This document shows, piece after piece, positions 5,074 to 62,071 of a stretch of 64,000 nt of DNA. A model generated the notes under the pieces. The model ran no database searches and was not told where the DNA came from. It was given only the letters and a program-made list of their open reading frames with translations. The stretch lies in contig VENI01000006.1 in the NCBI GenBank assembly GCA_009711615.1, positions 1 to 64,000 of the forward strand. Reading direction: 5' to 3'. A program made the position numbers and the translations under genes. Each line of letters starts with the position of its first letter. Position 1 is the stretch's first letter. The stretch comes from Bacillota bacterium. GTDB taxonomy: Bacteria; Bacillota; Desulfotomaculia; Desulfotomaculales; Desulfohalotomaculaceae.

Positions 5074-5128
5074 TTCAGGAGACAGGAGACAGGATAAAAA
5101 CCCTCGCAAACATTCTGAATTCTGAATA
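5074..5128. repeat. heptamer inverted repeat element 1 (after clpC)
   Basis: Left arm has CAGGAGA units twice plus CAGGA (about 5075-5092). Right arm has ATTCTGA twice (about 5112-5125). It starts within a few bases of the clpC stop. Member of the dispersed 7-base-unit family described in the findings. Confidence 0.7.
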
Positions 5129-5147
5129 GTTATATTGTCTTATTGCT

Positions 5148-5183
5148 GGGCAAAGACACTTGTGGTGTTTTTGCCCTGTACCC
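5148..5183 (+). terminator. hairpin terminator of the ctsR-clpC operon
   Basis: GGGCAAA-g-ACAC, loop TTGTG, then GTGT-t-TTTGCCC: an 11-bp stem with one symmetrical mismatch. Only a moderate T-rich tail follows (CCCTTTTATT), so efficiency is uncertain. Confidence 0.6.
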
Positions 5184-5196
5184 TTTTATTCGGTCA

Positions 5197-5205
5197 TGGT
5201 ATAAT
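5197..5205 (+). promoter_or_regulatory. possible extended -10 promoter of radA
   Basis: TGG-TATAAT (TATAAT at 5200-5205) with the TGn extension but no convincing -35. It lies between the clpC terminator and radA and would give radA-disA its own transcript. Confidence 0.4.
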
Positions 5206-5268
5206 TTTGTATTAATGAAATACAAATAATGATCGGAGCTGGTTATTATTCGTGCTAGAACCAGTTTT

Positions 5269-6603
5269 TTGTGCCAGGAATGCGGTCACCAGTCTCCACG
5301 GTGGATGGGTAAGTGTCCTGAGTGTGATTCCTGGAACACTTTAGTGGAAGAGAAACCGCCATCCGGAAATAGCAAGAGCAAGTTGACATTACCAACGGAT
5401 TTTCCAAAACTGCTTTCCCAAGTTGATATGGCAGAAGAGGATAGATACCCTACCGGGATTAATGAATTGGATCGGGTGTTAGGGGGCGGGGTGGTTCCTG
5501 GCTCGTTGGTGTTAATTGGTGGGGATCCAGGGATAGGAAAGTCAACATTGTTGCTACAGGCAGCCAGCAGTTTGAGTACCAGTGGTAAGGTTCTTTATAT
5601 AACAGGGGAAGAATCACTACGACAAGTTGGCTTGCGTGCAGGCAGACTAGGTCTTAAGACAAATGAGATATACCTGGCCTGTGAAACAAACCTGGAATAT
5701 ATTTCTGAATATATAAAGAAAGTATCCCCTCGGGTAGCAGTGGTTGATTCTATACAGACCATGGTTCACCCAGATGTAACGTCTGCACCTGGTAGCGTAT
5801 CTCAAGTAAGGGAAGTAACGGCAAAATTAATGCACCATGCAAAGGAACATGGAACTTCTATTTTTATTGTGGGTCACGTTACTAAAGAAGGAACTATAGC
5901 AGGCCCTAGAGTTTTGGAGCATATGGTGGATACCGTGTTATACTTTGAAGGTGATAGACACCAGTCTTTTCGTGTACTGCGAACGGTGAAAAACAGGTTT
6001 GGATCCACTAACGAATTAGGTATTTTTGAGATGCAGGGCCAGGGGTTAGTTGAAATAGAGAATCCGTCAGCAATGTTTATGGCCAGACACCCATTATCCA
6101 CAGCGCCAGGCTCTGTTGTAGTTCCCAGCATTGAAGGAACTAGACCACTGTTGGTGGAAATTCAAGCGTTGGTTAGTTCAAACTCTTACGGGGTGCCTCG
6201 ACGTATGACCACCGGTGTAGATCACAATCGGGTGGCGTTAATTATGGCAGTGTTGGAGAAAAGAGTGGGAATGAGAATGGGTAGTAGCGATGCATATGTA
6301 AATGTAGTTGGTGGGGTGCGCCTGCTGGAACCCGCGGTTGACTTGGCGGTAGCTTTGTCATTGGCCTCCAGTTTTAGGGACGCGGCAGTTCCAAATGACA
6401 TGGTGGTAGTGGGGGAAGTGGGGTTAACCGGTGAGGTGAGGCCAGTAACGTCACTGGAGAGAAGACTAAAGGAAGCAGAGGGCATGGGATTCAAGAAAGC
6501 ATTGGTTCCTTGTACTGGAATCAAAAAAATGAGCCTGCCAGATGTGCAGTTGTACTCTATAGATACATTGGTTGAAGCCATAGAAGTGGCATTACAAGGG
6601 TAA
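5269..6603 (+). CDS. radA: RadA/Sms, DNA repair branch-migration ATPase
   Basis: RecA-like helicase that processes recombination intermediates. It has an N-terminal C4 zinc finger (CQECG...CPEC), Walker A GGDPGIGKS near residues 85-92, the RadA-specific KNRFG motif near 241-245 and a Lon-like C-terminal domain. The stated start is the first standard codon (TTG 5269), but it has no SD and falls right at the first zinc cysteine. The reading frame stays open upstream (R-A-R-T-S-F-L) to an ATT at 5245 or 5248, placed 6-9 nt after GGAG (5235-5238). The real start is therefore probably a rare ATT. disA follows after 11 nt. Confidence 0.93.
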   Translation: MCQECGHQSPRWMGKCPECDSWNTLVEEKPPSGNSKSKLTLPTDFPKLLSQVDMAEEDRYPTGINELDRVLGGGVVPGSLVLIGGDPGIGKSTLLLQAASSLSTSGKVLYITGEESLRQVGLRAGRLGLKTNEIYLACETNLEYISEYIKKVSPRVAVVDSIQTMVHPDVTSAPGSVSQVREVTAKLMHHAKEHGTSIFIVGHVTKEGTIAGPRVLEHMVDTVLYFEGDRHQSFRVLRTVKNRFGSTNELGIFEMQGQGLVEIENPSAMFMARHPLSTAPGSVVVPSIEGTRPLLVEIQALVSSNSYGVPRRMTTGVDHNRVALIMAVLEKRVGMRMGSSDAYVNVVGGVRLLEPAVDLAVALSLASSFRDAAVPNDMVVVGEVGLTGEVRPVTSLERRLKEAEGMGFKKALVPCTGIKKMSLPDVQLYSIDTLVEAIEVALQG

Positions 6604-6614
6604 GGAGGAGCGGC

Positions 6615-7697
6615 ATGCTTAAAGATGAGAAAATTGAAGATGAATTACTTCAAGTGCTGCGCAAAGTTGCTCCTGGAACACCACTGAGGGATGGAATGGA
6701 AAATATTCTACGGGCAAAAACAGGTGCCTTAATAGTAATAGGCGATAGCCCTGAAGTTATGAATATTTCTGAAGGCGGTTTTGAAATTAACGCGGACTTT
6801 ACTCCAGCCTCTCTATATGAACTGGCTAAGATGGATGGGGCAATAATAATTAGTGAAGACACCAAACAGATAATAGCTGCCAACAAACAATTAATTCCCG
6901 ATCTGTTGATACCTTCTACCGAAACCGGCATTCGTCATCGTACAGCCGAAAGGGTGGCTAAGCAAAGTGTGGAATTAGTTATATCCGTATCCCAGCGTCG
7001 GGGCGTTATCACATTATATAAAGGCTCATTAAAATATGTTCTTAAAGATATTGGTGTCATATTAGCAAAGGCCAATCAAGCTATTCAGACATTAGAGAAA
7101 TACCGTTCTGTATTAGACCAGGTGGTTTTGGAGCTTTCCAACTTAGAATTTTTGGATTCAGTAAGTCTGTATGATGTTACTAAGGCGATTCAGCGTGTAG
7201 AAATGGTAATGCGTGTGGTAAAGGAGATTGAGCGTTATACCAGCGAACTAGGTGTGGAGGGTCGCCTGATAACCATGCAGATGGAAGAATTGGTATCAAA
7301 CGTGGAAGTCGAAGGTTTGCTTATTATACAGGACTATACCACTGATGTTGAAAAATCCCCGGAAAGTATATTCGAGATGATCAACAGCTGGCCAGCAGAA
7401 GATTTGTTGGACTTTGCCTTAATTGCCAGAGCATTAGGGTATTCGGGAGGGCAAAGTATACTGGAACAAAATGTGACTCCCAGGGGATACCGGGTGCTGC
7501 GAAAGATTCCGCGCCTGCCGGTGCCGGTAATAGAAAATTTAGTAGATTCATTTGGTACTCTTCAGCATATTCTGCGAGCCAGTATTGAACAGTTAGATGA
7601 TGTAGAGGGAATTGGTGAAGTTCGCGCCAGATCAATAAAAGAGGGTCTCCGTCGTTATCGGGATAAGTTAATTCAAGATAGATTTACAAATTATTAA
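6615..7697 (+). CDS. disA: DisA, diadenylate cyclase and DNA-integrity scanner
   Basis: 360 residues, typical length. It makes cyclic di-AMP from 2 ATP and scans DNA for recombination intermediates, delaying sporulation when damage is found. The N-terminal DAC domain has DGA at 74-76 and RHR at 107-109, both needed for nucleotide binding. A helical spine follows, and a C-terminal helix-hairpin-helix (VEGIGEVRA, about residue 330) binds branched DNA. SD AAGGAGGAG precedes ATG 6615. It follows radA by 11 nt, matching the known RadA-DisA partnership. Confidence 0.96.
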   Translation: MLKDEKIEDELLQVLRKVAPGTPLRDGMENILRAKTGALIVIGDSPEVMNISEGGFEINADFTPASLYELAKMDGAIIISEDTKQIIAANKQLIPDLLIPSTETGIRHRTAERVAKQSVELVISVSQRRGVITLYKGSLKYVLKDIGVILAKANQAIQTLEKYRSVLDQVVLELSNLEFLDSVSLYDVTKAIQRVEMVMRVVKEIERYTSELGVEGRLITMQMEELVSNVEVEGLLIIQDYTTDVEKSPESIFEMINSWPAEDLLDFALIARALGYSGGQSILEQNVTPRGYRVLRKIPRLPVPVIENLVDSFGTLQHILRASIEQLDDVEGIGEVRARSIKEGLRRYRDKLIQDRFTNY

Positions 7698-7700
7698 TAG

Positions 7701-7778
7701 TGCAGGAGTCAGGATAAAACCGTTAAAGTTTAAAAACCTTTTGGAGCATTCTGAATTCCGAATTCTGACTCCTGAATA
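7701..7778. repeat. heptamer inverted repeat element 2 (after disA)
   Basis: The left arm GCAGGAGTCAGGA (7702-7714) starts 4-6 nt after the disA stop. The right arm, about 7749-7777, is ATTCTGA/ATTCCGA/ATTCTGA/CTCCTGA. The middle is about 35 nt of AT-rich sequence. Confidence 0.75.
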
Positions 7779-7786
7779 CCTAACCC

Positions 7787-7812
7787 AAAAAACCGGGGTG
7801 ACCCGGTTTTAC
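7787..7812. terminator. bidirectional terminator between disA and the minus-strand gene
   Basis: AAAACCGGG at 7789-7797, loop GTGA, CCCGGTTTT at 7802-7810, with A- and T-runs on both sides. It therefore works on both strands: for disA (plus) and for the CGC-protein gene whose stop is at 7812-7814 (minus). A weaker outer pairing CCTAAC/GTTAGG extends the stem. Confidence 0.88.
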
Positions 7813-8216
7813 TAAGTTAGGTTATAATGTCTCAATAATTTTGTTTTATTATATTCCTTTATAATTATGTCAAATAAGTTTATATCCAATGAATTGCATA
7901 GTGCTGCTAAGTATACCAAGGATTTGCCAATGTCCTTTTCCACAGCTTCTCTGCATTGTAAGCAAAGTTTGCCCTTTAGATGGGAGTCCATAATGTTTTT
8001 TAATTCAGCAAGAGATGTACTATCAGAGACCTTGTTTTTGCTAGATTGTATGTTTATGCAACCACAGTTTGTTACTGCTTTGAATGTAGAGCGGTTAATT
8101 GCAGCCCCGCATTCTTGGTGCTTGCTTAAAATATCTAAAATACTTCGATTACATACAATCTGGTCAGAAACAGTATATTGGAATTCTTCTGCTAAAAGAT
8201 CTTTTAACAAGTGCAT
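7812..8216 (-). CDS. small conserved CGC-motif protein (DUF1573-annotated type)
   Basis: 134 residues with no signal peptide or membrane segment. Visible marks: CGAAINR, a CGC triplet in TNCGCINIQ near residue 52, a second pair in LCLQCREAVE and a helical C-terminal half. From memory it resembles a small protein often labelled DUF1573 and found beside carD/disA in Peptococcaceae; I cannot confirm the family. I chose ATG 8216 because AAAGGAG stands just before it; an upstream in-frame Met adds 15 residues without an SD. It has its own strong minus-strand promoter and a bidirectional terminator. The cysteines suggest metal or redox use, but the function is unknown. Confidence 0.72.
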   Translation of the reverse strand: MHLLKDLLAEEFQYTVSDQIVCNRSILDILSKHQECGAAINRSTFKAVTNCGCINIQSSKNKVSDSTSLAELKNIMDSHLKGKLCLQCREAVEKDIGKSLVYLAALCNSLDINLFDIIIKEYNKTKLLRHYNLT

Positions 8217-8247
8217 CCACTCCTTTATGGTGTTAATACATAAATAA

Positions 8248-8277
8248 ATTATAGACACCATTTGAGGTGTTTGTCAA
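8248..8277 (-). promoter_or_regulatory. consensus sigma-A promoter of the CGC-protein gene with palindrome in the spacer
   Basis: On the minus strand TTGACA (8277-8272), an 18-nt spacer and TATAAT (8253-8248). The spacer contains the palindrome ACACC-N6-GGTGT (8255-8270), a position typical of a repressor operator. Confidence 0.75.
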
Positions 8278-8300
8278 ACGAACACACATTCAAAAAGTTA

Positions 8301-8329
8301 TTGACACCTCATGATCCCTGTGCTATAAT
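8301..8329 (+). promoter_or_regulatory. carD promoter P1 (perfect consensus)
   Basis: TTGACA at 8301-8306, 17-nt spacer, TATAAT at 8324-8329. ACACCTCA at 8304-8311, overlapping the -35, repeats the half-site found in the divergent promoter. Confidence 0.8.
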
Positions 8330-8340
8330 ACTAGTTTTGT

Positions 8341-8369
8341 TTGACAGTTAAATTCTTTTATGTTATACT
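8341..8369 (+). promoter_or_regulatory. carD promoter P2
   Basis: TTGACA at 8341-8346, 17-nt spacer, TATACT at 8364-8369. It lies exactly 40 bp downstream of P1. Confidence 0.78.
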
Positions 8370-8397
8370 AATAGAGGAATTTTAAGGGGGGATGCTC

Positions 8398-8874
8398 TTG
8401 TTCAGTATAGGGGATAAAGTTGTTTATCCTATGCATGGTGCTGGTGTTATCGAAGCCATAGAGGAAAAAGAAGTGTTGGGTGAAAAGCGCAAGTACTATA
8501 TACTGCGCTTGCCTATGGGAGACATGAAAGTAATGATACCGATAGCTGGCACTGATAATACGGGATTGCGTCAAGTTATAGATAACCAAGGAGTTAAGCG
8601 AGTGATGGACATCCTCAGCGAAGATACCAGTAGTATGTCTACCAATTGGAACAGACGATATCGTGCTAATCTGGAAAAGATTAAAAGCGGTGATGTTTAT
8701 GAGGTGGCAGAAGTAGTTCGTAATCTCTTTAAAAGGGACAGAGAAAAGGGACTATCGTCAGGGGAGCGAAAAATGCTGGAAAATGCCCGGCAGATTTTAA
8801 TAAGTGAGCTGGTGCTGGCAGCTGAACTAGAAATAGACTCAGCTCAAACCCTAATCGAAAGTGCCCTCGCATAA
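8398..8874 (+). CDS. carD: CarD/CdnL-family RNA polymerase-binding transcription regulator
   Basis: 158 residues. CarD-family proteins bind the RNA polymerase beta subunit through an N-terminal Tudor-like domain and stabilise open complexes through a helical C-terminal domain. The start FSIGDKVVYPMHGAG is the family hallmark (CarD_TRCF domain). The C-terminal half is helical, with ERKMLENARQIL near 125. TTG 8398 is preferred over ATG 8392 because AAGGGGGG ends one base before the ATG but 6-7 nt before the TTG. Two tandem consensus promoters drive it and a terminator follows, so it is monocistronic. Confidence 0.92.
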   Translation: MFSIGDKVVYPMHGAGVIEAIEEKEVLGEKRKYYILRLPMGDMKVMIPIAGTDNTGLRQVIDNQGVKRVMDILSEDTSSMSTNWNRRYRANLEKIKSGDVYEVAEVVRNLFKRDREKGLSSGERKMLENARQILISELVLAAELEIDSAQTLIESALA

Positions 8875-8879
8875 AACTT

Positions 8880-8910
8880 ACGTCAGAAATTTTTTTTCTG
8901 GCGTATTTTA
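8880..8910 (+). terminator. carD terminator
   Basis: ACGTCAGAAA pairs with TTTCTGGCGT (one G-U), followed by ATTTTATT. It begins 6 nt after the carD stop. Confidence 0.75.
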
Positions 8911-8958
8911 TTATAATGAAATTTCTTACTAAAAAATGGTATTATTTTTTATTAGGTA

Positions 8959-8988
8959 TTGAATCAAGTTATACTTATTAACTATAAT
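8959..8988 (+). promoter_or_regulatory. promoter of yacL
   Basis: TTGAAT at 8959-8964, 18-nt spacer, TATAAT at 8983-8988. It is placed about 70 nt before the yacL start. Confidence 0.6.
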
Positions 8989-9059
8989 GTATATATGTGT
9001 TTATGTAAAGGTCGATTTTTATTATCATCAATAACTCTATCATGGAAAGGAGGGGAAAG

Positions 9060-13440: not shown

Positions 13441-14901
13441 TTGACTGTAAGAGTACGTTTTGCACCCAGTCCAACTGGGCCGTTGCATATTGGCGGAGCT
13501 CGTTCCGCACTTTTTAACTGGCTTTATGCACGCCACCATGGCGGTCAATTTATTGTACGGATAGAAGATACCGACTTGGAGCGTTCAAGCCGTGAATCTG
13601 AAGAGAATATCCTGAATTCCCTAAAATGGTTAGGTCTGGACTGGGATGAAGGTATAGAAGTTGGTGGACCTAATGGGCCATATCGTCAAACTGAACGATT
13701 GGCCAAATACCGTGAATTAGCTGATACCCTGGTGCAAACAGGGCATGCTTATCACTGCTACTGCAGTGAAGAAGAGTTGGCTGCTGAACGGGAGGCTTTG
13801 AAAGAAAAAGGAGAATTGCCTCGCTATTTAGGGCGCTGCCGTAACCTTTGCCAGGAAGACAAAGAAAAATTAGAGGCGGAAGGACGAAACCCAGTACTTA
13901 GATTTAAGGTTCCAGAGAATGAAATTATTACGATTAACGATGATGTTCGGGGGCAGGTTGAATTTGAGAGCGATGGTATAGGAGATTTTGTAATAATGAA
14001 ATCCGGTGGCATCCCCACATACAACTTTGCTGTGGTGGTGGATGACCATGATATGGATATTACCCATGTATTACGGGCCGAGGAACACCTCTCCAATACT
14101 CCTAGGCAAATTCTTATATATAATGCCCTGGATTGGGATGTGCCCATATTTGCTCATGTTTCTTTAATACTGGGTAAAGACCGCAGTAAAATGTCTAAAC
14201 GCCATGGAGCAACTTCAATCGAACAGTATAAATCAATGGGATATCTTCCAGAAGCACTGGTGAATTTCTTGGCCCTTTTAGGTTGGTCCCCCGGTGGTGA
14301 AGAAGAAGTTCTACCCCTTGAAGAAATAAAAGATCTTTTTACACTGGATAAAGTATCTAAGAGTCCGGCAGTATTTGATCTGGAAAAGCTGAATCACTTA
14401 AACGGCATGTATATTCGTAACAGTGAATTAGACTATATTACTAAGCTTGCCCTGCCCTTTATGCAAAAAGCTGGCTACATTTCTGAGAGCCCTACCCCTG
14501 AAGACTTGGAAATGGCAAAACAAATTGTTGACGCGACCAAGAAGTATGTAAATAATATGTCAGAGATAGTAGAACATATGGAAATTTTCTTTACTGACGA
14601 AATGAAGTTGGAAAATGAAAAGGCCAGGGAAGCATTGCAAATAGAAGAGGTTCCCCAGGTAATGCACGCCATGAAAGAAAAAATATTTTCTTCCAGTAAG
14701 CTTACTGAGGAAATAGTGAAAGGTATGCTTAAAGAACTAACAAAGGAACTGGGTTTTGGAGGCAAAAAGGTTTACATGCCCCTAAGAGTGGCTTTGACCG
14801 GTCAAACCCATGGGCCTGAACTCTATCAAATAATACCGATTTTAGGTACCAACAGAACAATTGACAGGCTAAATGCTGTATTAGAGGGGAAACTTTCATA
14901 G
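13441..14901 (+). CDS. gltX: GluRS, glutamyl-tRNA synthetase
   Basis: 486 residues, class I synthetase. HIGH motif in [15 protein letters not shown] at the N-terminus and KMSKRHGA near residue 250. A cysteine/histidine cluster near 102-124 (HCYCSEEE...CRNLC) fits the zinc-binding region of bacterial GluRS. TTG start with AAGGAGG 9 nt upstream. The neighbouring glnS suggests this enzyme could be discriminating (Glu only), but specificity cannot be read from the motifs. cysE-cysS follow, as in Bacillus. Confidence 0.95.
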
Positions 14902-15015
14902 ATAAAAACTACTCTGGGGTCTGAATTAGAGGACTGGCGTAGCAAAGCAGGTAAGATTTGTTTTTAAAAATTGCCAAAGTATTAAAGAATGCCGATACTA
15001 TCTGATCCTACGAAG

Positions 15016-15055
15016 TATTCTAACTACTGACTCCTGAATTCTGACTCCTGAATTA
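15016..15055. repeat. heptamer repeat element 3 (right arm, before cysE)
   Basis: Units ATTCTAA/CTACTGA/CTCCTGA/ATTCTGA/CTCCTGA/ATTA in 7-nt register. A degenerate left arm may lie near 14913-14950 but is not convincing. It ends about 20 nt before the cysE start. Confidence 0.65.
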
Positions 15056-15770: not shown

Positions 15771-17227
15771 TAGAGATATACAATACCTTAACCAGGCAGA
15801 AAGAAAAGTTTGAGACTAGCACACCTGGCCAGGTAAACATGTATGTGTGCGGCCCAACCACATATAATTACATCCACTTGGGCAATGCTCGTCCAATAGT
15901 GGTTTTTGATACGGTGCGCCGTTATTTGTTAAACAAGGGTTACCAGGTAACCTATATACAAAACTTTACCGATGTAGATGATAAAATAATAAAGCGAGCC
16001 ATTGAAGAAGGGGAACAACCTTTGGTGCTGGCTGAGAAATACATAAAGGAATATTTTAAGGATGCAGATGCCCTTAATGTAAAGCGTGCTGATAAACACC
16101 CCAAAGTTTCTGAGCATATGCCAGAAATTATAGAGTTGATTAAGGAACTTATTAAAAACGGTTATGCTTATGAAGTTGAGGGTAATGTGTTTTTTGATGT
16201 ACGTAAGTTTGAAGGTTACGGAAAGCTTTCTGGGAGAGACCTTGATGAAATGCAGGCCGGTGCTCGGGTAGAAGTTAACGAAATTAAAAAAGACCCCATG
16301 GATTTTGCCCTGTGGAAGAAGGCCAAGCATGGGGAACCCAGTTGGCCAAGCCCTTGGGGTGAAGGGCGTCCTGGGTGGCATATTGAATGCTCGGCAATGG
16401 CATTAAAATATCTGGGAGCTGGTTTTGATATTCACGGTGGTGGTTATGATTTAGTGTTTCCTCACCATGAAAATGAGATTGCCCAGTCTGAAGCGGTTGT
16501 ACAAGAGGATTTTGCAAAGTACTGGATGCATAATGGTTTTATTACCATTAATAAGGAGAAGATGTCCAAATCATTGGGTAATTTTTTCTTGGTTCGAGAG
16601 ATTTTGGATAAATTTCCTGGGGAAGTGGTCCGCTTTTACCTCTTATCCACCCATTACCGCAGTCCCCTTGATTTTGATAATGAAAAACTGGAGGCCAGTC
16701 AGCGTGGTTTAGAAAGGTTAAAAAACTGCTACAATCTGTTAGCAGAAGCCTCTGGCAGTAGTGAAGAAAGCATTGAAGCATCAGAGGTTGAGAAGCAATT
16801 TGAAGATCAGCTGGTTCATCTGGATAAATCTTTTGAAGAGGCAATGGATGACGATTTTAACACAGCCTTAGCCACCGCTGTTTGGTTTGACCTGGCTAAA
16901 GAGATAAATGTATATTTTAAGGATAAACAGAATGATAATGCAACGGCATCGGCAGCTAACTTACAGCGGGCTAAAGATCTTTTTAATACATTTAACCAAG
17001 TATTGGGTGTTTTTAAAGCAGATCAAACTACGGGCAACATACTTATGGAAGAAAAAGACTCTGGCGATGACGAACTGGTAGATCAGCTGATACAGCTTGT
17101 TGCTGGCATCCGTCAGCAGGCACGGAAGAAAAAAGACTGGGATACCGCTGATTCTATTAGAGATGGTTTGAAAGAATTGGGCATCACACTGCAGGACACC
17201 CCCCAAGGTGTTAAATGGAAAAGGTGA
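15767..17227 (+). CDS. cysS: CysRS, cysteinyl-tRNA synthetase
   Basis: 486 residues. HIGH variant HLGN in GPTTYNYIHLGNARP near residue 30-44. Zinc ligands are C28 (VCGPT), the cysteine in WHIECSAM, and HHENE; KMSKS is in KEKMSKSLGNF near 265. The C-terminal anticodon-binding helical bundle is full length. TTG start overlaps the cysE stop (TTGA). mrnC begins inside its 3' end. Confidence 0.96.
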   Translation: MIEIYNTLTRQKEKFETSTPGQVNMYVCGPTTYNYIHLGNARPIVVFDTVRRYLLNKGYQVTYIQNFTDVDDKIIKRAIEEGEQPLVLAEKYIKEYFKDADALNVKRADKHPKVSEHMPEIIELIKELIKNGYAYEVEGNVFFDVRKFEGYGKLSGRDLDEMQAGARVEVNEIKKDPMDFALWKKAKHGEPSWPSPWGEGRPGWHIECSAMALKYLGAGFDIHGGGYDLVFPHHENEIAQSEAVVQEDFAKYWMHNGFITINKEKMSKSLGNFFLVREILDKFPGEVVRFYLLSTHYRSPLDFDNEKLEASQRGLERLKNCYNLLAEASGSSEESIEASEVEKQFEDQLVHLDKSFEEAMDDDFNTALATAVWFDLAKEINVYFKDKQNDNATASAANLQRAKDLFNTFNQVLGVFKADQTTGNILMEEKDSGDDELVDQLIQLVAGIRQQARKKKDWDTADSIRDGLKELGITLQDTPQGVKWKR

Positions 17228-21260: not shown

Positions 21261-21446
21261 GACTCAGGAGTTAGTAGTGAGTAGTGAGGAGTTAGAATAA
21301 AAACCATAAGAACATAAGAAGGATTAAATCTAACTATAATACTGGTTGCGGTAATCTTTGAGACATAAAAGTTGCAAAACTTGAAGAGATATTTTTTAGT
21401 ATTCTAACTACTATCTCCTATCTCCTAACTCCTAGCTCCTAATAAT
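21261..21446. repeat. heptamer inverted repeat element 4 (between tRNAs and tuf1)
   Basis: Left arm 21261-21299 has units like AGGAGTT, AGTAGTG and AGTGAGG. Right arm 21399-21444 has TCTCCTA, ACTCCTA and GCTCCTA units. This is one of the longest members, separated by about 100 nt of AT-rich sequence. The remainder of the 21219-21601 gap shows no gene and no promoter I would trust for tuf1. Confidence 0.75.
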
Positions 21447-25288: not shown

Positions 25289-25306
25289 TACTCACACGTT
25301 AATAAT

Positions 25307-25401
25307 TCAGGAGTTAGAATTTAGGAGTTAGGAGTTAGAATTAAGAAAGCGTAAGACTTTCGATATTCTGAATGCTGACTACTGAAACCTGATTACCTGA
25401 T
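25307..25401. repeat. heptamer inverted repeat element 5 (rplA-rplJ)
   Basis: Left arm 25307-25342 has CAGGAGT TAGAATT TAGGAGT TAGGAGT TAGAATT units. Right arm 25364-25400 has ATTCTGA ATGCTGA CTACTGA. It lies directly upstream of the L10 leader. Confidence 0.75.
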
Positions 25402-25410
25402 AACATTCTA

Positions 25411-25540
25411 ATATATGATTGTTCCTGCTGTAGACCGTTGGTGTTTAACTTAAAGGCGAAAGCTGCCAGCGCAGGTCGGAGACATCCTGCTCAATGAATA
25501 TGCAGGACCTCTGTGTCTGTCTACAGAGGTCTTTTTCTTA
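25411..25540 (+). ncRNA. ribosomal protein L10 leader with attenuator
   Basis: The leader upstream of rplJ holds a structured region (about 25420-25500, with AGCTGCCAGCGCAGG and repeated GCAGGA elements). It ends in an intrinsic attenuator: GACCTCTGT at 25506-25514, 8-nt loop, ACAGAGGTC at 25523-25531 and TTTTTCTT. Such leaders are bound by the L10-(L12)4 complex to adjust L10/L12 output; the family is assigned from position and architecture. Confidence 0.8.
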
Positions 25541-25569
25541 TTTTAATGCCTTTGAAGGGAGGTGTGCAA

Positions 25570-33882: not shown

Positions 33883-33982
33883 GCAGGAGCTAGGAGTTAG
33901 GAGTAAGGAGTTAGAATTTAAAGCCAGAGAAGGATGTTTGATGGACATTCTGAATTCTGACTCCTGAATTCTGACTACTGTC
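33883..33982. repeat. heptamer inverted repeat element 6 (after rpoC)
   Basis: Left arm 33883-33918: GCAGGAGC TAGGAGT TAGGAGTA AGGAGTT AGAAT, starting 3-4 nt after the rpoC stop. Right arm 33946-33980: ATTCTGA ATTCTGA CTCCTGA ATTCTGA CTACTG. One of the cleanest examples. Confidence 0.8.
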
Positions 33983-34754: not shown

Positions 34755-34843
34755 TCAGTAGTCAGGAGCTAGGAGTCAGGAGTCAGAATAAAACCATAAA
34801 AACAATTAACATATGTGCATTCTGAATGCTGGCTACTTAATTA
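34755..34843. repeat. heptamer inverted repeat element 7 (rpsL-rpsG)
   Basis: Left arm 34755-34789: CAGTAGT CAGGAGC TAGGAGT CAGGAGT CAGAATA. Right arm 34818-34840: ATTCTGA ATGCTGG CTACTTA. It lies within an operon, between two ribosomal protein genes. Confidence 0.75.
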
Positions 34844-34879
34844 TAAATACTTCAATAATTACAATATGTACTTATATAA

Positions 34880-54483: not shown

Positions 54484-55325
54484 AAGTAGAAAACCTTTTT
54501 TACACTCATGCCCCAGGTACACCCTATGAGCATACTGCGCTTAAGGGAGTTTCACTTAAGGTGGGCAGGGGAAGGATAGCAGCAATTATAGGTCCTACCG
54601 GATCTGGAAAGTCAACATTAATCCAGCACTTTAATGGACTGTTGGCTCCCCAAAGAGGTTCTGTGAAAATATTTGGAAAAAGTGCTTCAGATAAAGCAGT
54701 TAGGAAATCACTTTGGAAGTCAGTGGGGTTGGTATTTCAATATCCCGAAAAGCAGCTATTTGAAGAAACTGTTTATGATGATATTGCTTTTGGTCCTAAG
54801 AATTTGGGCTTAAATAAGCAACAAATTCAAGGAAGGGTAATTAAGGCATTAGATTTTACAAACTTATCTCAAGAAATTCTTACGCGCTCACCGCATGTAT
54901 TAAGTGGTGGCATGAAAAGAAGAACCGCCATAGCCGGGATATTAGCGATGAAACCTGAAATACTGGTGCTAGACGAACCCACAGCGGGAATGGACCCTGA
55001 TACTAAAAAAAGTTTTCTTGCTAACATAAAAAAATTACAACAAAGCAATACCATTACAATAATTATGGTTACCCATAGCATGGAAGATGCAGCATTGATA
55101 GCAGATGAACTATTGGTTATTAACAAAGGGGAAATAATTTTAAATGGTACACCAAGGGAGATCTTTACACAAGCTGAACAGCTGACTAACATTGGGTTGG
55201 ATGTACCGGTGGAGGTGGCGCTGATGATAAAGCTACAGCGGCGAGGAATACCGGTAAGTACCAGCGTTTTAGGAGTTAACGAAGCAGTGGCGGAAATTTG
55301 TAGAAATATAAAAAGCAGGAGTTAG
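54471..55325 (+). CDS. ecfA2: EcfA2, ECF transporter ATPase subunit
   Basis: 284 residues, ABC ATPase. Walker A GPTGSGKS near 43-50, signature LSGGMKRRTAI, Walker B ILVLDEPTAGMDP. The last codons and the stop (AGG AGT TAG) lie inside heptamer element 8, so the protein's C-terminus (KSRS) is made by the repeat. Confidence 0.95.
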   Translation: MWAVEVENLFYTHAPGTPYEHTALKGVSLKVGRGRIAAIIGPTGSGKSTLIQHFNGLLAPQRGSVKIFGKSASDKAVRKSLWKSVGLVFQYPEKQLFEETVYDDIAFGPKNLGLNKQQIQGRVIKALDFTNLSQEILTRSPHVLSGGMKRRTAIAGILAMKPEILVLDEPTAGMDPDTKKSFLANIKKLQQSNTITIIMVTHSMEDAALIADELLVINKGEIILNGTPREIFTQAEQLTNIGLDVPVEVALMIKLQRRGIPVSTSVLGVNEAVAEICRNIKSRS

Positions 55326-55428
55326 GAGTCAGTAGTCAGGAGTCAGAATGGAAAAGCATTAAGAACCTAATGATGTATCATCTTATTAAATTAATTGTGA
55401 ACACAATTTGATTCCTGAATTGATTTAG
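55314..55428. repeat. heptamer inverted repeat element 8 (ecfA2-ecfT)
   Basis: Left arm 55315-55349: GCAGGAGT TAGGAGT CAGTAGT CAGGAGT CAGAAT, starting inside ecfA2. The right arm is reduced to ATTCCTGAATTGA (about 55411-55423). Confidence 0.75.
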
Positions 55429-56244: not shown

Positions 56245-56248
56245 TGAA

Positions 56249-56989: not shown

Positions 56990-57168
56990 GGCAGGAGATA
57001 GGAGCTAGGAGTTAGGATTTAGAATTGTAAGAACTAAAGCTAAGTGCTTCTTCGAAGCACTTGAATATATTGATGTTTTTCGATGCAGCTTCTTGCTATA
57101 AAGTAGACGGTGTATATTGTTAGGATTTTATTCTAACTACTAACTCCTCACTACTAATTACTGAATTT
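56990..57168. repeat. heptamer inverted repeat element 9 (truA-rplM)
   Basis: Left arm 56991-57024: GCAGGAGA TAGGAGC TAGGAGT TAGGATT TAGAATT, starting 1-3 nt after the truA stop. Right arm 57129-57165: ATTCTAA CTACTAA CTCCTCA CTACTAA TTACTGA. About 100 nt between arms. Confidence 0.78.
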
Positions 57169-57750: not shown

Positions 57751-58143
57751 TTGGCCCAAGTACAGTTTTATGGTACCGGACGTAGAAAAAGTTCAGTAGC
57801 ACGGGTTTATCTGGTACCTGGTGAAGGTAAGTTTAATGTTAACGATAAATCACTGCAAGATTACTTTGGTCGTAAAACACTAGAGATGATTGTAAAGCAA
57901 CCTATGGAAGTAACTGGCACATCCGGTCGCTTTGATGTTAAGGTAATAGTAAAAGGCGGCGGTGTTAGTGGTCAAGCAGGTGCAGTGAGAATGGGTATAG
58001 CAAGGGCATTGGTGCAGGCAGATCCCAATTTGCGTCCAGCATTAAAGCGTTCTGGCTTCTTAACCCGTGACCCACGGATGAAGGAACGCCGTAAATACGG
58101 TCTGAAAAAAGCCCGTCGTGCTCCACAGTTCTCAAAACGTTAA
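57751..58143 (+). CDS. rpsI: Ribosomal protein uS9
   Basis: 130 residues; its C-terminal arginine tail ([12 protein letters not shown]) touches P-site t[20 protein letters not shown] start. TTG start after GAAGGGAGG. Followed by heptamer element 10 and a strong terminator. Confidence 0.97.
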
Positions 58144-58147
58144 TAAG

Positions 58148-58223
58148 TGCAGGAGTCAGAATTCAGGAGTCAGTAGTCAGAATAAGAGAAAAGTTCATCG
58201 TCTCGAAATTTGGAATTCTGAAC
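58148..58223. repeat. heptamer inverted repeat element 10 (after rpsI)
   Basis: Left arm 58148-58183: GCAGGAGT CAGAATT CAGGAGT CAGTAGT CAGAAT. Short right arm GGAATTCTGAA (58212-58222). Confidence 0.75.
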
Positions 58224-58251
58224 TGTTTAGCAGTTACAAAGTGTATACACC

Positions 58252-58287
58252 AATAAAGGAAGGCTCAAGCCTTCCTTTATTTTTTTA
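58252..58287 (+). terminator. rplM-rpsI terminator
   Basis: AATAAAGGAAGGCT at 58252-58265 pairs perfectly with AGCCTTCCTTTATT (58268-58281), then TTTTT. Strong. Confidence 0.93.
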
Positions 58288-58430
58288 ACTAAAAATAGAA
58301 TGTTACTTAGGTCTATTAAAGAATACTGAAACCACTTGAATTAAAAGTGGTCTTAAATGTGGTCAAACTTTATAAACATACCTTCTAGTACAAAAGTATT
58401 TGATTTATTTGGAAAGATATTTTTAAAATT

Positions 58431-58463
58431 TTGACTCCTGACTCTTGGCTCCTGACTTCTTAA
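58431..58463. repeat. heptamer repeat element 11 (right-arm type, before cwlD)
   Basis: TTGACTCCTGACTCTTGGCTCCTGAC in 7-nt register, without a nearby left arm. It may be the partner of element 10, split by the terminator. Nothing else is recognisable between 58288 and 58556. Confidence 0.6.
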
Positions 58464-58556
58464 CCCCAAATAAGCTTCCATAAATAACATGCATTTTCTA
58501 ATCTCTTTCTGCATACCTTTCTTTCATAAGTTTAAGTTGTACAAGGGGTGGGGGAA

Positions 58557-59309
58557 TTGGTTACATATTTTAAAGTATTTCGCTTTCGTAAGCGGTATCT
58601 GATCTACGGGCTAATTGCAATGTTTTTAGTGAGTAAACTCTATGGGGTGGCACAGATAAGGGCGGAACAGGAATCTATTTCCGCCATGTCCTGGTCAGTG
58701 GCAAACAAAGTAATAGTAATAGACCCAGGTCATGGTGGAGTAGATCCAGGTAAGATGGGAGAGAACGGTGTAAAAGAAAAGGATATTAATTTAGAAATAT
58801 CTAAACGATTGGCCACCATATTAAGTCAAGCAGGAGCGGCAGTAATTTTAACAAGAGAAAGTGATATGCACTTGTCCAGTGAAAAAACTAAGGGCTGGGC
58901 TGCGAAGCACCGTGAGGACTTATCTAAAAGGGTAAAACTGGCCAATGAGAGAGAAGCAGATTTATACATCAGCATTCACTGCAACAGCTTTCCTGACAGC
59001 AACCAGCGTGGATCACAGGTGTTCTACCAACCTAAGTCAGAAAATAGTAAAATGCTTGCAGAGGCAATACAGCATGAAATTATTCGGTTAATTGGGAATA
59101 CGAAACGGAAGGCAAAGGGTGTTGACTATTATATAACTAGGAACACCAATATGCCTACAGTGATAGTGGAAACAGGTTTTGTCACCAGTCCAAAAGAAGT
59201 AAGCCAGTTGTTAGACCCTGCTTACCAAACCAAAATGGCTTGGAGTATTTATGCTGGCATAATTAAGTACTATGCCGACAAGGCTGAAGGTTATGAAACT
59301 AAAGAGTGA
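58557..59309 (+). CDS. cwlD: CwlD, N-acetylmuramoyl-L-alanine amidase (spore cortex)
   Basis: 250 residues. One N-terminal membrane/signal segment (about 14-30), then an Amidase_3 domain: DPGHGGVDPG with the zinc histidine, the glutamate in EKDINLEISKRL, SIHCNSF with the second histidine, and VETGFVT with the catalytic glutamate. With PdaA it makes muramic lactam in the cortex. TTG 58557 is 8 nt from AAGGGG; GTG 58548 is too close. Downstream of rpsI as in Bacillus. Confidence 0.92.
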   Translation: MVTYFKVFRFRKRYLIYGLIAMFLVSKLYGVAQIRAEQESISAMSWSVANKVIVIDPGHGGVDPGKMGENGVKEKDINLEISKRLATILSQAGAAVILTRESDMHLSSEKTKGWAAKHREDLSKRVKLANEREADLYISIHCNSFPDSNQRGSQVFYQPKSENSKMLAEAIQHEIIRLIGNTKRKAKGVDYYITRNTNMPTVIVETGFVTSPKEVSQLLDPAYQTKMAWSIYAGIIKYYADKAEGYETKE

Positions 59310-59328
59310 AGTTAAAAATTAAGGAATC

Positions 59329-59499
59329 TTAATCGGCTATTATTCTACCAATAATTTTAATACTTACATCATGCAGATTTAGCATATAAATTTTTGGCCG
59401 ATCTTCAATAGTTGCAAAAAGCATAATCTTATCGTCCTTGTGATTTCTACTGAAAGCTAATAGAAAAGAAAAGGCTTCGGGTATTAGGGAGCAGAACAT
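59329..59499 (-). CDS. short uncharacterised ORF, 56 residues
   Basis: My direct reading of the minus strand: MFCSLIPEAFSFLLAFSRNH, then KDDKIMLFATIEDRPKIYML, then NLHDVSIKIIGRIIAD and TAA. ATG is preceded by GAGGTG at 6-7 nt. It begins hydrophobic and continues with an ordinary globular-like composition. I do not recognise it. It lies alone between two plus-strand genes, so its reality depends on conservation. Confidence 0.45.
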   Translation of the reverse strand: MFCSLIPEAFSFLLAFSRNHKDDKIMLFATIEDRPKIYMLNLHDVSIKIIGRIIAD

Positions 59500-59567
59500 A
59501 ATTAACACCTCAAATACGGCAGCATTATTTTAAAACAAAAATTTTATGAGTAATATTAGAGACTGCG

Positions 59568-59634
59568 CCTCAAAATAATAAGTAAGCGAGTTCAAGTGAA
59601 TATGTTTCATTATATTAACTTTCTTATTTTGGGG
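59568..59634 (+). promoter_or_regulatory. inverted repeat that can mask the cysteine desulfurase SD
   Basis: CCTCAAAATAA (59568-59578) pairs with TTATTTTGGGG (59624-59634, one wobble). The 3' arm runs into GGGGTGA, the SD for TTG 59643. The loop is about 45 nt. Confidence 0.45.
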
Positions 59635-59642
59635 TGACAATT

Positions 59643-60800
59643 TTGAAATATGTATATTTTGATAATGCAGCAACATCATGGCCGAAACCACCGGAAGTAT
59701 TACAGGCAATGGAACATTTTATTAAAGAAGTGGGTGCCAGCCCTGGTAGAGCGGGCCATAAAAGAACAGTGGAAGCCAACGGAATAGTAGATGAAACACG
59801 GGAGTTACTGGCCAGACAGTTTAATATTAATGATCACCAGCAAATAAGTTTCACCATGAATGCTACTGACGGGTTAAACACTGCCATAAAAGGAATATTA
59901 AAACCCGGCGATCACGTAATTACCAGTTCTATGGAGCACAATTCGGTGTCCCGCCCACTATATGTTTTAGAGCAAGAGGGAGTGCAGGTTACTAAAATCA
60001 AATGCAATTTCCAAGGGGATATCTGCCTGCAAAAAATTGAACAGGCCATAAAACCCAACACCAAGTTGTTAATTATAACCCATGGTTCCAATGTAACGGG
60101 TACCATTATGCCAGTTAAAGATATTGGAGAAATAGCCCAAAAGCACAACATATATTTTTTGCTGGATGCATCTCAAACAGCGGGTATTGAAAATATTGAT
60201 GTACAAAAATTTAATATTAACATGATGGCTTTTCCCGGCCACAAGAGTTTATATGGCCCCCAAGGAACAGGTGCATTATATGTAGCAGGGGGAATGCCGG
60301 TGCACCCGCTCAGGCAAGGAGGTACGGGCACAAAATCGGACACACCTTATCAGCCAGAAGTTCTACCAGAAAAGTTTGAGAGCGGCACCCTTAATGCTTT
60401 AGGTATTGCTGGGCTGGGGGCAGGACTAAAATTTATTAACCGTGTAGGGATGGATGCTATCAAAGAACGGGAAATGCAGCTAACCAAGAAATTCTTAGAA
60501 GGTGTAAAAAAGATACCGAACATAGTGGTTCATGGGCCAAGAAATGCAGAAAAACAGCTCCCGGTGGTATCATTTGAAATAAAAGGGCATAAGGCGGGGG
60601 ACGTGGGTAAACCGCTGGATGAGCAATACAATATAGCCTGTCGCGCCGGGCTACATTGTGCACCGGATGCTCATCACACGTTAGGTACATTTAACCGAAA
60701 ATTGGTTAGGTTTTCGTTTTCATATTTTAATACTCCTGACGAAGTGGAATATGCCCTAAGAAGCCTTAGGGAAATTGCAATGGACATGCCCAAAAATTAA
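59643..60800 (+). CDS. Cysteine desulfurase family protein (class V aminotransferase fold)
   Basis: 385 residues, PLP enzyme removing sulfur from cysteine. YFDNAATSWPKP start, the PLP lysine in FPGHKSLYGPQGTG near 200, GTGTKSD, and the catalytic cysteine in CRAGLHCAPDAHHTLGT (C339). This is the NifS/Csd-like subgroup seen in Clostridia; no scaffold gene sits next to it. TTG 59643 is 5-6 nt after GGGGTGA; GTG 59634 overlaps the SD itself. Confidence 0.92.
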   Translation: MKYVYFDNAATSWPKPPEVLQAMEHFIKEVGASPGRAGHKRTVEANGIVDETRELLARQFNINDHQQISFTMNATDGLNTAIKGILKPGDHVITSSMEHNSVSRPLYVLEQEGVQVTKIKCNFQGDICLQKIEQAIKPNTKLLIITHGSNVTGTIMPVKDIGEIAQKHNIYFLLDASQTAGIENIDVQKFNINMMAFPGHKSLYGPQGTGALYVAGGMPVHPLRQGGTGTKSDTPYQPEVLPEKFESGTLNALGIAGLGAGLKFINRVGMDAIKEREMQLTKKFLEGVKKIPNIVVHGPRNAEKQLPVVSFEIKGHKAGDVGKPLDEQYNIACRAGLHCAPDAHHTLGTFNRKLVRFSFSYFNTPDEVEYALRSLREIAMDMPKN

Positions 60801-60822
60801 ATTTTTTACAGTTTATTCGTAG

Positions 60823-60942
60823 TAGAGTAGTGTAATAATGGGTCGCCGTGGACTAAACCGATTACAAGACATTCTTTTAGGTAGTTTATGTGAAAGGGTA
60901 GTTGATAAATCCAAATGCCCGGTAACAGTGGTTCTAAGATTA
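60823..60942 (+). pseudogene. C-terminal remnant of a universal stress protein (UspA)
   Basis: From the in-frame stop at 60823-60825 the frame reads SSVIMGRRGLNRLQDILLGS, then LCERVVDKSKCPVTVVLRLIV. This matches the UspA ATP-binding end, VMG-x2-G-x9-G-S/x-x-x-V-x6-CPVxVV. The N-terminal two-thirds are missing, and homology continues upstream of the only ATG (60838), so it is a decayed gene. Frame stays open to 60981, running into the terminator. Confidence 0.7.
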
Positions 60943-60955
60943 ATTGTAGATATAA

Positions 60956-60994
60956 AGCCAGCCTGTATCACTCTGATATAGGCTGGTTCTTTTG
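60956..60994 (+). terminator. terminator after the cysteine desulfurase/UspA remnant
   Basis: CCAGCCTGTATCA (60958-60970), loop CTC, TGATATAGGCTGG (60974-60986), one G-U, then TTCTTTT. Confidence 0.85.
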
Positions 60995-61025
60995 TGAATT
61001 AGTATAATTATTAATTCTACATTTT

Positions 61026-61304
61026 TCATTGTATTTTTTTATCTAGTCTTGCCACTTGAATTAACACCTTGGCCACTGCCTCGTATAATTCCGGTGGAAT
61101 TTCTGCTCCGATGCCAAGCTCTGTGAGGGCTTGGGCTAACACCTTGTCCTGATGAATGGGGATGTTTTCTTTTTTAGCTATTTCCTCTATTTTTTTGGCC
61201 ACGTCACCGTAACCAGCTGCCACCACCTTTGGGGTTTCATCTTCTTCCAATCTATACTTAAGTGCTGCAGCAACCTTTCTGGAGGTCCTTTTGTTATCTG
61301 CCAA
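61026..61304 (-). CDS. FlhB C-terminal-domain homologue (YlqH/FlhX type)
   Basis: 92 residues, equal to the cytosolic export-switch domain of FlhB/YscU without the membrane part: VAAALKY, then IAKKENIPIHQD, LAQALTELGIGAEIPPELYEAVAKVL. The autocleavage NPTH of true FlhB is replaced by a run around DNKRTSRKV, so it is not self-cleaving. TTG 61304 chosen because GGGAGGTG lies 7 nt upstream. Cotranscribed with the FliK-like gene. Confidence 0.85.
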   Translation of the reverse strand: MADNKRTSRKVAAALKYRLEEDETPKVVAAGYGDVAKKIEEIAKKENIPIHQDKVLAQALTELGIGAEIPPELYEAVAKVLIQVARLDKKIQ

Positions 61305-61306
61305 AC

Positions 61307-61900
61307 CTACACCTCCCAATCCAGCAGTGACTTAATTACTTCTGCATTAGCAGCTGCTGGGTCAATATCCTGGCATTGCCTAATGTTGGGTTGCACATGG
61401 CTGTATGCTGCCACTTCTTTGTAACCAGCACTCTTTAAATCGTTAGTTACTTCGGGCAGAATGCCGTTAATTGCTTCGCTAACCGGCTGGCTATCTGCAA
61501 AGAATCGCACCACCAAACCGCCAGTGGGTACAGAAAAAAGCGCTACCCACAATATACCCAAGTTATAAGTATCTAATTTAATAAACAGTCCAGAGCTTTC
61601 ATTTTCAGAGTCTTTACTTTTATTTTCACTGTATTTGCGTAGATAAAAAAGCGCAGACTTAAAATAGTCACTTTTTAACGGCAACGGCAAGTATAGTATT
61701 TCATTTTGCAAAGAAGGCCGCATCTGCTGGGTATCAGCCTCCTTTGTTTCGCCGCCTTTGGTGGTGGACATAGCAGCCTGAGCTTGCCTGGCAGTTTCTT
61801 TAAGCTGAAAAGCCTCATGTTTTTGGTTCGCCGGCTGTTGTTTTGCATGTTTGGGCTGCTGTAACTTTAAAATAGCCGGTAATATTTTGTTTATATTCAT
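61307..61900 (-). CDS. FliK C-terminal-like uncharacterised protein (YlqG type)
   Basis: 197 residues. A Gln/Lys-rich N-terminal 65 residues is followed by a folded part with LFIKLDTYNLGILWVALFS and LVVRFFADSQPVSEAINGI, resembling the hook-length control FliK C-terminal fold. Its partner downstream is the FlhB-C homologue, matching Bacillus ylqG-ylqH. ATG 61900 follows AAAGGTGG. The identity is by pattern only. Confidence 0.65.
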   Translation of the reverse strand: MNINKILPAILKLQQPKHAKQQPANQKHEAFQLKETARQAQAAMSTTKGGETKEADTQQMRPSLQNEILYLPLPLKSDYFKSALFYLRKYSENKSKDSENESSGLFIKLDTYNLGILWVALFSVPTGGLVVRFFADSQPVSEAINGILPEVTNDLKSAGYKEVAAYSHVQPNIRQCQDIDPAAANAEVIKSLLDWEV

Positions 61901-62050
61901 GTCACCACCACCTTTGAACTTTTTGATGTATATATGTATTTTTTTGTTTTGAACGTTTCATTTTAATACTAACTTATATTATACATATCGTTAATACATA
62001 GTGCAGGACTTTAGCATTAAAAAAAGAAAACATAAAAAAATTGTAATTAC

Positions 62051-62071
62051 GTAGGAGTTAGGAGTTAGAAG
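62051..62071. repeat. heptamer repeat element 12 (left-arm type)
   Basis: TAGGAGTTAGGAGTTAGAA, left-arm units only, upstream of the MEMO-AMMECR1 gene. No clear right arm; the 61901-62122 gap shows otherwise AT-rich sequence. Confidence 0.65.

Follow-up and report, generated by a model that had tools for sequence, protein, structure and literature searches.

The window analysed here is a stretch of 64,000 nucleotides from a Bacillota bacterium of the Desulfotomaculales (contig VENI01000006.1 of assembly GCA_009711615.1), and the subject of this report is a family of hairpins, built from inverted arrays of 7-bp units, that lie between its genes. These hairpins probably derive, with loss of the open reading frame (ORF), from a small mobile element that in its complete state has a gene of the four-helix-bundle family PF05635/TIGR02436, the S23 or 23S rRNA intervening-sequence protein (IVP), between inverted 7-bp arrays. 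A profile scan detected 18 heptamer arms in the window and none in the reversed window, and a simpler regular expression gave 17 runs, compared with a mean of 1.08 and a maximum of 4 in 50 order-1 random sequences. The arms group into about 12 elements located between protein or tRNA genes. These counts confirmed the dispersed intergenic family on a 7-base register, enriched over reversed and random sequence, that a first-pass annotation of the window had described at these sites, including partial copies before cysE, cwlD and the MEMO gene. In the list that follows, the gene names are those of that annotation except where Pfam or Rfam support is given, gene ends are taken from our own ORF calls, and G001 and G002 are two congeners of the window genome (G000).

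5075..5127, + strand: element 2 nt past the clpC stop codon, with its left arm at 5075-5094, a core and its right end at 5113-5127 (profile scan and sequence); absent from G001 and G002
7703..7779, + strand: element 5 nt past the stop codon of a disA-like gene; left arm 7703-7714, right arm 7749-7779; absent from G001 and G002
15015..15053, + strand: lone right-type arm 24 nt upstream of a 230-aa ORF read as cysE; absent from G001 and G002
21264..21442, + strand: element following the tRNA cluster, with arms at 21264-21297 (left) and 21399-21442 (right); absent from G001 and G002
25305..25392, + strand: element 16 nt past the rplA stop codon and directly upstream of the L10 leader; absent from G001 and G002
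25410-25546: L10 leader (Rfam)
33884..33982, + strand: element 3 nt past the rpoC stop codon, with arms at 33884-33920 (left) and 33948-33982 (right); absent from G001 and G002
34755..34851, + strand: element 4 nt past the stop codon of the gene for ribosomal protein S12 (PF00164); left arm 34755-34788, right arm 34820-34851
55316..55348, + strand: lone left arm behind the gene read as ecfA2, with a TAG stop codon (55323-55325) within the array; absent from G001 and G002
56992..57166, + strand: element 2 nt past the truA stop codon, with arms at 56992-57026 (left) and 57131-57166 (right); absent from G001 and G002
58150..58223, + strand: element 6 nt past the rpsI stop codon, with its left arm at 58150-58182, a short core and a remnant of the right end, AATTCTGAAC, at 58214-58223; absent from G001 and G002
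58432..58460, + strand: right-type arm upstream of the Amidase_3 (cwlD) gene
62052..62071, + strand: lone left arm 51 nt upstream of the LigB/AMMECR1 (MEMO) gene; absent from G002, while the G001 stretch ends short of the site

The array behind the ecfA2-read gene supplies the stop codon of that gene, and a terminator-like hairpin lies downstream of the disA-like element (7703..7779). The scan joined the arm in front of cwlD (58432..58460) to the rpsI left arm at a distance of 249 nt, a pairing that is doubtful. At the gathering score, no Rfam family overlapped any window element. No T-run was seen by eye directly after the right-arm stems in the window, which agrees with the earlier view that these hairpins are not ordinary intrinsic terminators. 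The sequence GAGAACGGTT was considered as a common core and rejected, having only 13 matches in 200 loci.

The placement of the arms at stop codons, their polarity and the S23/IVP gene are absent from the first-pass annotation and are new here. Distances were measured from the closest stop codon upstream, read in the direction of the gene. At -3 to +7 nt from this codon, three divergent genomes including G000 contained 40, 11 and 8 arms in the GGAG sense (59 in total) and 0, 0 and 0 in the opposite sense, a placement within the 15 nt of a stop codon that characterises part of the repetitive extragenic palindromic (REP) sequences. When same-strand spacers with a first arm not of the GGAG type were excluded, which left 53, 18 and 16 scored spacers out of 67, 18 and 18, the GGAG-type arm fell within the initial 10% of what remained of the spacer in 34, 10 and 8 cases, compared with 5.3, 1.8 and 1.6 expected under a uniform distribution. 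The stop-proximal arm is richer in GGAG units in G000 (150/242 versus 44/170, p = 3e-13), an enrichment that was not significant in the other two genomes. Arms within 300 bp of each other pair inward, the left-right order being found 31, 9 and 12 times in the three genomes and the right-left order 0, 0 and 1 times (52 versus 1 in total). The same polarity appeared in 74 virus-set stretches fetched by the sequence pattern described below, with 38 left-right and 2 right-left pairs and 25 versus 1 arms at -3 to +7 nt; called ORFs contained 60 of their 205 arms, and 24 were obtained in the reversed control. One virus-set contig, L279 (IMGVR_UViG_3300010379_000036), has about 10 inverted heptamer pairs in 14.7 kb, much denser than elsewhere.

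The family extends over the whole of G000 (3,168,988 bases, 19 contigs). The pattern CAGGAGTCAGGAGTCAG, which represents two tandem units and was searched with at most two mismatches, has 171 forward and 141 reverse matches (312 in 3.17 Mb, matches overlapping within one array being counted separately) and none when reversed. Arm scans were noisy at the first threshold of 15, with 163 arms and 42 in the control; a threshold of 20, used for all later counts, gave 128 arms in G000 versus 3 in the control, and 3 of the 128 were inside called genes. In 420 kb of G000 there were 24 tandem arrays of period 7 and 0 to 1 for each of the periods 4-6 and 8-12. Two other genomes rich in the unit had 18 and 17 period-7 arrays versus a maximum of 1 for other periods, and genome G042 had 12 versus a maximum of 2. 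Outside the window, 356 kb had been selected near pattern matches, and array densities there are therefore biased upwards. The closest relatives found, Desulforadius tongensis and Desulfotomaculum sp. GB_MAG20_002, belong to the same genus group as the window genome, and both congeners had 0 pattern matches genome-wide. At least one match was found in 28 of 60 relatives, only some of which are rich, these being in other families of the order. Among 29 named genomes 13 had matches, including Peptococcaceae bacterium BRH_c8a with 509 and Bacillota bacterium SKS1.bin126 with 333, and the pattern with at most one mismatch was found in 32 of 398 genomes of the phylum. The spread of the heptamer family is thus patchy and deep.

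Comparison with orthologous intergenic regions, another check suggested by the earlier annotation, showed that the sites are empty in the congeners. Their orthologous stretches (58 kb and 80 kb) contained no arm at threshold and one 11-nt match below it, and the alignment to the relatives breaks at the window elements; behind the S12 gene, for example, 107 bp separate the aligned blocks in the window versus 4 bp in G001. All 10 window sites that were compared in both congeners are empty, and so is an eleventh, before the MEMO gene, that was compared in G002 only. Turnover was followed in a genus represented by G042, G009 and G034, which share about 75% identity. Six G042 elements were resolved (L201, L208), leaving out of the count one unresolved L201 element and two sites in L211/L212. 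Of these six, two occur throughout the trio, one recurs in G034 alone, and three have no counterpart in G009 or G034, where short clean gaps are found instead. At one further site G009 and G034 have an element and G042 has none, and at the site common to G042 and G034, G009 has a pair made of another heptamer, AGCTGAC. In the genus of G101, three sites recur from one species to another; the places in the G101 genome coincide with those in a Thermincola ferriacetica metagenome-assembled genome (MAG). About 0.9 kb of extra DNA, resembling an insertion sequence (IS) by eye, lies within a G185 heptamer element that is short in G101 (L319:7145-8035). A dispersed repeat of about 360-460 bp adjoins right-type arms in one genus (L201:16571-16729, L208:14252-14611, with copies in G034 and G009) and matches the TwoAYGGAY RNA (RF01731) at the one locus tested.

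A form of the element with a gene is found in G101, where one element encloses an ORF with its ribosome-binding sequence in the last left unit and its stop codon in the right arm. The protein matches PF05635, the 23S rRNA-intervening sequence protein, with 124.9 bits. A search for PF05635 in 36 genomes gave 32 rows in 20 genomes, over the cut-off in 17 of the 20. The flanks (160 bp on each side) were analysed for 29 of the 32 rows, leaving out two without a fetched locus and L356, the second piece of the L352 gene. Arrays of period 7 were present on both sides of 14 loci, only upstream of 4 and only downstream of 1, while arrays of period 6 and period 8 were found on both sides of 0 and 1, respectively. 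Control loci had no period-7 arrays on both sides (0 of 28 for Y1_Tnp and 0 of 6 for RVT_1). Nine units occur at the armed PF05635 loci (AGGAGTC, AGAATCC, AGTAGTC, GAGAGGT, GAGTCAC, TTCGAGG, AATTCGG, ATTGGAT and AGTGGGC), and in 12 of the 14 the left and right units are reverse complements of each other within two mismatches. Six weak PF05635 rows (L342-L346 and L354) included none with an array pair and two with an upstream array; a reverse transcriptase adjoins five of the six, and these are probably avd genes of diversity-generating retroelements (DGRs).

The window's own genome also has an armed S23/IVP element, L348 (G000 contig 1, 604269-604571). At this locus the upstream ORF ends at 1433 and the array starts 3 nt later, followed by AGGAG-AAAAAA-ATG and an ORF of 121 residues (MREPAKSFEDLVVWQKAH...) with its TAA stop inside the right arm. 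The protein matches TIGR02436, four helix bundle protein, with 113.6 bits, and its relatives include the PDB chains 2gsc and 2rld. Compared with the DGR protein Avd (NCBIfam NF033474), three of four S23/IVP proteins, that of L348 included, scored 22-53 bits, under the cut-off of 80. The window elements are too short for an S23/IVP ORF and have none between their ends; for this reason we call them derivatives, not members, of the S23 and intervening-sequence elements. ORF-less cores were searched for traces of the start of such a gene, defined as the motif ATGAGRGAACCKG matching at 9 or more of 13 positions in the core start, with mononucleotide shuffles as the reference. The motif was found in 9 of 19 elements of G066 (47% versus 4.7% of shuffles) and in 12 of 67 elements of G000 (18% versus 1.7%), which is what internal deletion would leave.

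Four PF05635 loci (L332, L337, L355 and L351) are inside 23S rRNA genes as identified by Rfam, unlike the window elements, none of which lies in 23S rRNA. Period-7 arrays are present on both sides of the first three and only upstream of L351; the first three also have a second, ORF-less array pair in the same 23S rRNA gene. A protein search of plasmids for S23/IVP gave 20 records, 19 of them cyanobacterial, including one from Trichormus variabilis ATCC 29413. Of 17 plasmid loci analysed, 12 had period-7 arrays upstream and 7 on both sides, compared with 0 (period 6) and 1 (period 8) on both sides; degenerate arrays visible by eye at L357, L362 and L371 fell below the threshold and were left uncounted. 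Copies from Scytonema, Trichormus, Aulosira and Nostoc C052 have the leader CAGGAGTCAGAATAA-ATG, and their stop codon is within a GACTCCTGA or GGCTCCTGA unit; these copies thus share the window's unit in another phylum. At 9 of the 13 plasmid loci displayed with a preceding gene, the left array starts 0-8 nt past the stop codon of that gene, as judged by eye. In three cyanobacterial plasmids (L362, L364 and L368) the S23/IVP genes lie between CRISPR genes annotated as cas10/cmr3-family and cas6/cas4.

The large imperfect hairpins described in the first-pass annotation were borne out by folding. Among elements with cores of at most 60 nt, 24 of 30 folded at z < -2 against dinucleotide shuffles (median -4.0), and with their inward arms they have the complementary ends, forming a long stem, that are known from rRNA intervening sequences (IVSs). 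The claim that the arms co-vary so that complementarity is kept was not upheld. When arms were exchanged between elements of the same genome, in a gene-oriented test that replaced a first one ignoring gene direction, true pairs were no more stable than swapped ones (1806 of 2000 permutations as low or lower, three genomes together). The use of C and T in the two arms correlated when pooled (rho 0.41, p 0.004) and not significantly within any single genome. Arm length does change by whole heptamers, as had been proposed, but the two arms do not grow together. Between related species with aligned neighbours 87-92% identical, an arm of one element expanded from 5 units to about 35 and an arm of a second element from 6 units to about 55, with the opposite arm nearly unchanged in both. 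Since swapped arms pair as well and arms lengthen singly, the hairpin comes from a shared unit alphabet and not from arm-by-arm compensation. It had been stated beforehand that missing co-variation would make the family a compositional artefact. The co-variation is indeed missing; nonetheless, the pattern counts, the empty congener sites, the inward pairing and the anchoring at stop codons show that the family is no artefact.

Other repeats of similar build were observed. A second heptamer class in G000 (AATGAAA/AATTAAA with CATTTTT) also occurs as inverted pairs, several of which start or end within about 10 nt of a stop codon (L113:13098-13148, L114:9687-9718, L116:2071-2170, L117:17123-17227, L125:15934-16248 and L128:3058-3177). 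Inverted pairs of still other units are found at or just past stop codons, GGGATTA-like in an Armatimonadetes MAG and AGTTGAC in a Bacillota MAG (L033:14233-14546 and L088:15307-15418). G066 has three short inverted pairs of the 8-bp unit CTGCATAA, perhaps a period-8 cousin (L156:6360-6421, 14607-14668 and 15930-15990).

Candidate partner proteins were also considered. REP-associated tyrosine transposases (RAYTs) were searched for as PF01797 in 37 genomes and rejected as a general partner, with 15 Y1_Tnp loci lacking an arm and 28 lacking a period-7 array pair; G000 has four Y1_Tnp matches and the rich genomes G058 and G218 have none. A RAYT-like gene of G000 (L189:1070-1936) is flanked by inverted copies of GGGGACGGTTC, a separate REP-like family that is also present in several other loci. 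A reverse transcriptase partner was rejected for the assemblies searched, PF00078 having no match in G000 or the rich genomes G009, G026, G057, G058 and G218. Titration of CsrA was likewise rejected as a general explanation, with no csrA match in G026, G043, G051 and G057, all of them rich. G000 has four csrA matches (C1:153100, C1:150804, C1:150294 and C1:623158), versus none, one or two in the other genomes searched.

The anatomy of the window hairpins, their placement past stop codons and the empty congener sites are direct observations, as is the presence of S23/IVP genes between inverted 7-bp arrays in G000, other Bacillota, cyanobacterial plasmids and 23S rRNA genes. Together they make it fairly likely, in our judgement, that the window copies derive from the S23/IVP-bearing element. 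Such an element would move with the help of the S23/IVP protein, acting in cis or in trans, and would insert in the sense direction into DNA that codes for RNA, either at rRNA hairpins or directly behind stop codons. Insertion behind a stop codon would spare the reading frame and keep a downstream terminator or leader in place. Internal deletion would then give rise to the ORF-less copies, and slippage would lengthen or shorten each arm separately. A transcribed copy is expected to fold into a post-stop hairpin that is part of the mRNA. By analogy with rRNA intervening sequences, RNase III would probably cut this hairpin and so uncouple the ends of neighbouring cistrons; alternatively, the hairpin may act on ribosomes, as reported for E. 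coli REPs (PMC12306157).

Several results weigh against this derivation. About half of the 29 PF05635 loci lack arrays on both sides, including by the flank test the second PF05635 gene of G000 (L327), which has no period-7 array. The 14 armed loci are not all independent, as one genome apparently holds two copies (L332 and L347), L329 is orthologous to L333, and the L353 gene is a fragment in a long ORF. An S23/IVP gene over the cut-off is present in 10 of 18 unit-rich genomes and in 7 of 18 without a unit match, so that the gene does not predict the abundance of the unit; G066, the genome richest in the unit, has no S23/IVP gene. In 26 elements of G079 the ORF-start trace is unclear (3.8% versus 1.7%). 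Inverted ends are present and no target-site duplication could be defined, the relatives being too diverged. No mobilising enzyme was found among the families examined, Y1_Tnp and RVT_1, which do not track the repeats. The sharing of sites between species also fits selection for function.

The strongest competitor, still unlikely, is that S23/IVP genes are passengers which landed in heptamer hairpins that already existed and that arise and spread by other means. The 8 of 18 rich genomes without an S23/IVP gene over the cut-off would fit this idea, and IS-like DNA did enter at least one element (L319 versus L317). It does not account for the fixed geometry across units, in which the start codon comes shortly after the left array while the stop codon is in or near the right array, for a leader that is identical in two phyla, or for the ORF-start traces in ORF-less copies of two genomes. 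We give even less weight to the hairpins being functional 3'-end elements that tune termination or mRNA stability and owe their position to selection instead of targeted insertion. Such elements could explain the same post-stop placement in three divergent genomes and the sites shared within two genera while arrays and cores differ, and in E. coli, ribosomes reportedly stall at REPs that lie within 15 nt of a stop codon (PMC12306157). The lack of any element in the congeners of the window genome, the three of six resolved G042 elements missing from both relatives and the lack of arm-to-arm compensation argue otherwise.

Three further explanations appear very improbable to us. REP-like palindromes moved by a RAYT (Y1 HUH) transposase would share the post-stop placement of REPs (PMC12306157), and G000 does contain Y1_Tnp genes, but this explanation was already weakened by the Y1_Tnp counts given above, by the rich genomes that lack a match and by the different palindrome at the RAYT locus of G000. 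Growth in place, through polymerase slippage and template switching with no mobile element, is equally hard to accept. The dominance of period 7, the expansion of single arms between related species and the abundance of heptanucleotides, the leading class of long repeats in most surveyed genomes (PMC4679880), are in its favour; yet comparison with relatives shows insertion of cores and ends or of entire elements with an ORF, the unit and leader are common to Cyanobacteriota and Bacillota, and one species can have many pattern matches while its genus has none. The arms might finally be binding sites of a global regulator or nucleoid protein, either IHF/HU, as was suggested for similar paired heptamers in Geobacter metallireducens (PMC2700814), or CsrA through its GGA motif, with the four csrA matches of G000 in mind. 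This is no more credible, as CsrA is absent from four rich genomes, many units have no GGA, and binding of IHF/HU would leave the placement at stop codons unexplained.

Beyond the derivation of the window hairpins from an S23/IVP element, a wider proposal can be made, which we advance tentatively and regard as less likely than not. The tandem 7-mer repeats of cyanobacteria (STRRs), the Geobacter class-3 sites, the window hairpins and the 23S rRNA IVSs might form one mobile superfamily with interchangeable 7-bp modular ends and a four-helix-bundle protein. Its members would insert in the sense direction into RNA-coding DNA, at rRNA hairpins or directly past stop codons. An RNA intermediate may be involved, ribosomes or folded RNA may mark the site, and S23 would be the mobility factor acting in trans for hundreds of ORF-less copies. 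If the derivation of the window hairpins is right, a class of repeats without a known parent would gain a protein-coding one, rRNA intervening sequences and post-stop mRNA hairpins would be one family, and repeats described separately would be tied together. The S23 four-helix-bundle proteins, weak relatives of Avd, would gain a testable setting. The many post-stop copies, some of them in gene clusters for ribosomal proteins and RNA polymerase, could determine RNA stability separately for each cistron in lineages with such copies.

Among the open-access matches listed, no paper joined heptamer arrays to S23/IVP genes or to stop codons, subscription papers being mostly outside this scope. Cyanobacterial STRRs are patchily distributed tandem arrays of degenerate 7-bp units in intergenic DNA. 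The window family consists of degenerate tandem 7-bp units in intergenic DNA as well, and the likeness in kind noted in the first-pass annotation can be accepted. An earlier survey, as cited in PMC4679880, found heptanucleotides to be the most abundant class of long repeats in most genomes. The TAACTGA arrays described there resemble the window family in being intergenic, degenerate, 7-bp and patchily distributed, but they are direct repeats, in Maribeggiatoa mostly just 5' of start codons, with one inverted case only (PMC4679880). In Geobacter metallireducens, eight pairs of opposite-strand sites, each with five tandem heptamers of consensus MTYCTGA, were guessed to bind IHF/HU (PMC2700814). 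The same heptamers are found in the right arms of the window, and in both systems the arrays are paired on opposite strands at variable distance; the Geobacter sites were read as regulator sites, and no anchoring at stop codons or S23/IVP gene is reported in the available part of that work (PMC2700814). REPs and bacterial interspersed mosaic elements (BIMEs) with their RAYTs are also intergenic palindromes, part of them within 15 nt of stop codons, where in E. coli they are reported to stall ribosomes (PMC12306157), and GTAG REPs can supply stop codons (PMC3733652). The window family differs in being made of heptamer arrays instead of one short palindrome, and the 15 Y1_Tnp loci had no arms. 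With DGRs there is a weak similarity, below the cut-off, between S23/IVP proteins and Avd (NF033474), but the armed S23/IVP elements show no reverse transcriptase, and RVT_1 has no match in G000. The last comparison is with rRNA intervening sequences that carry an S23/IVP ORF. The window copies differ from them in having no ORF and in lying behind the stop codons of protein genes and not in rRNA. Both are inserts with complementary ends, transcribed in the case of the rRNA sequences, which RNase III excises from 23S rRNA (PMC4990558), and the ORF-bearing form of the element encodes the same protein family, PF05635.

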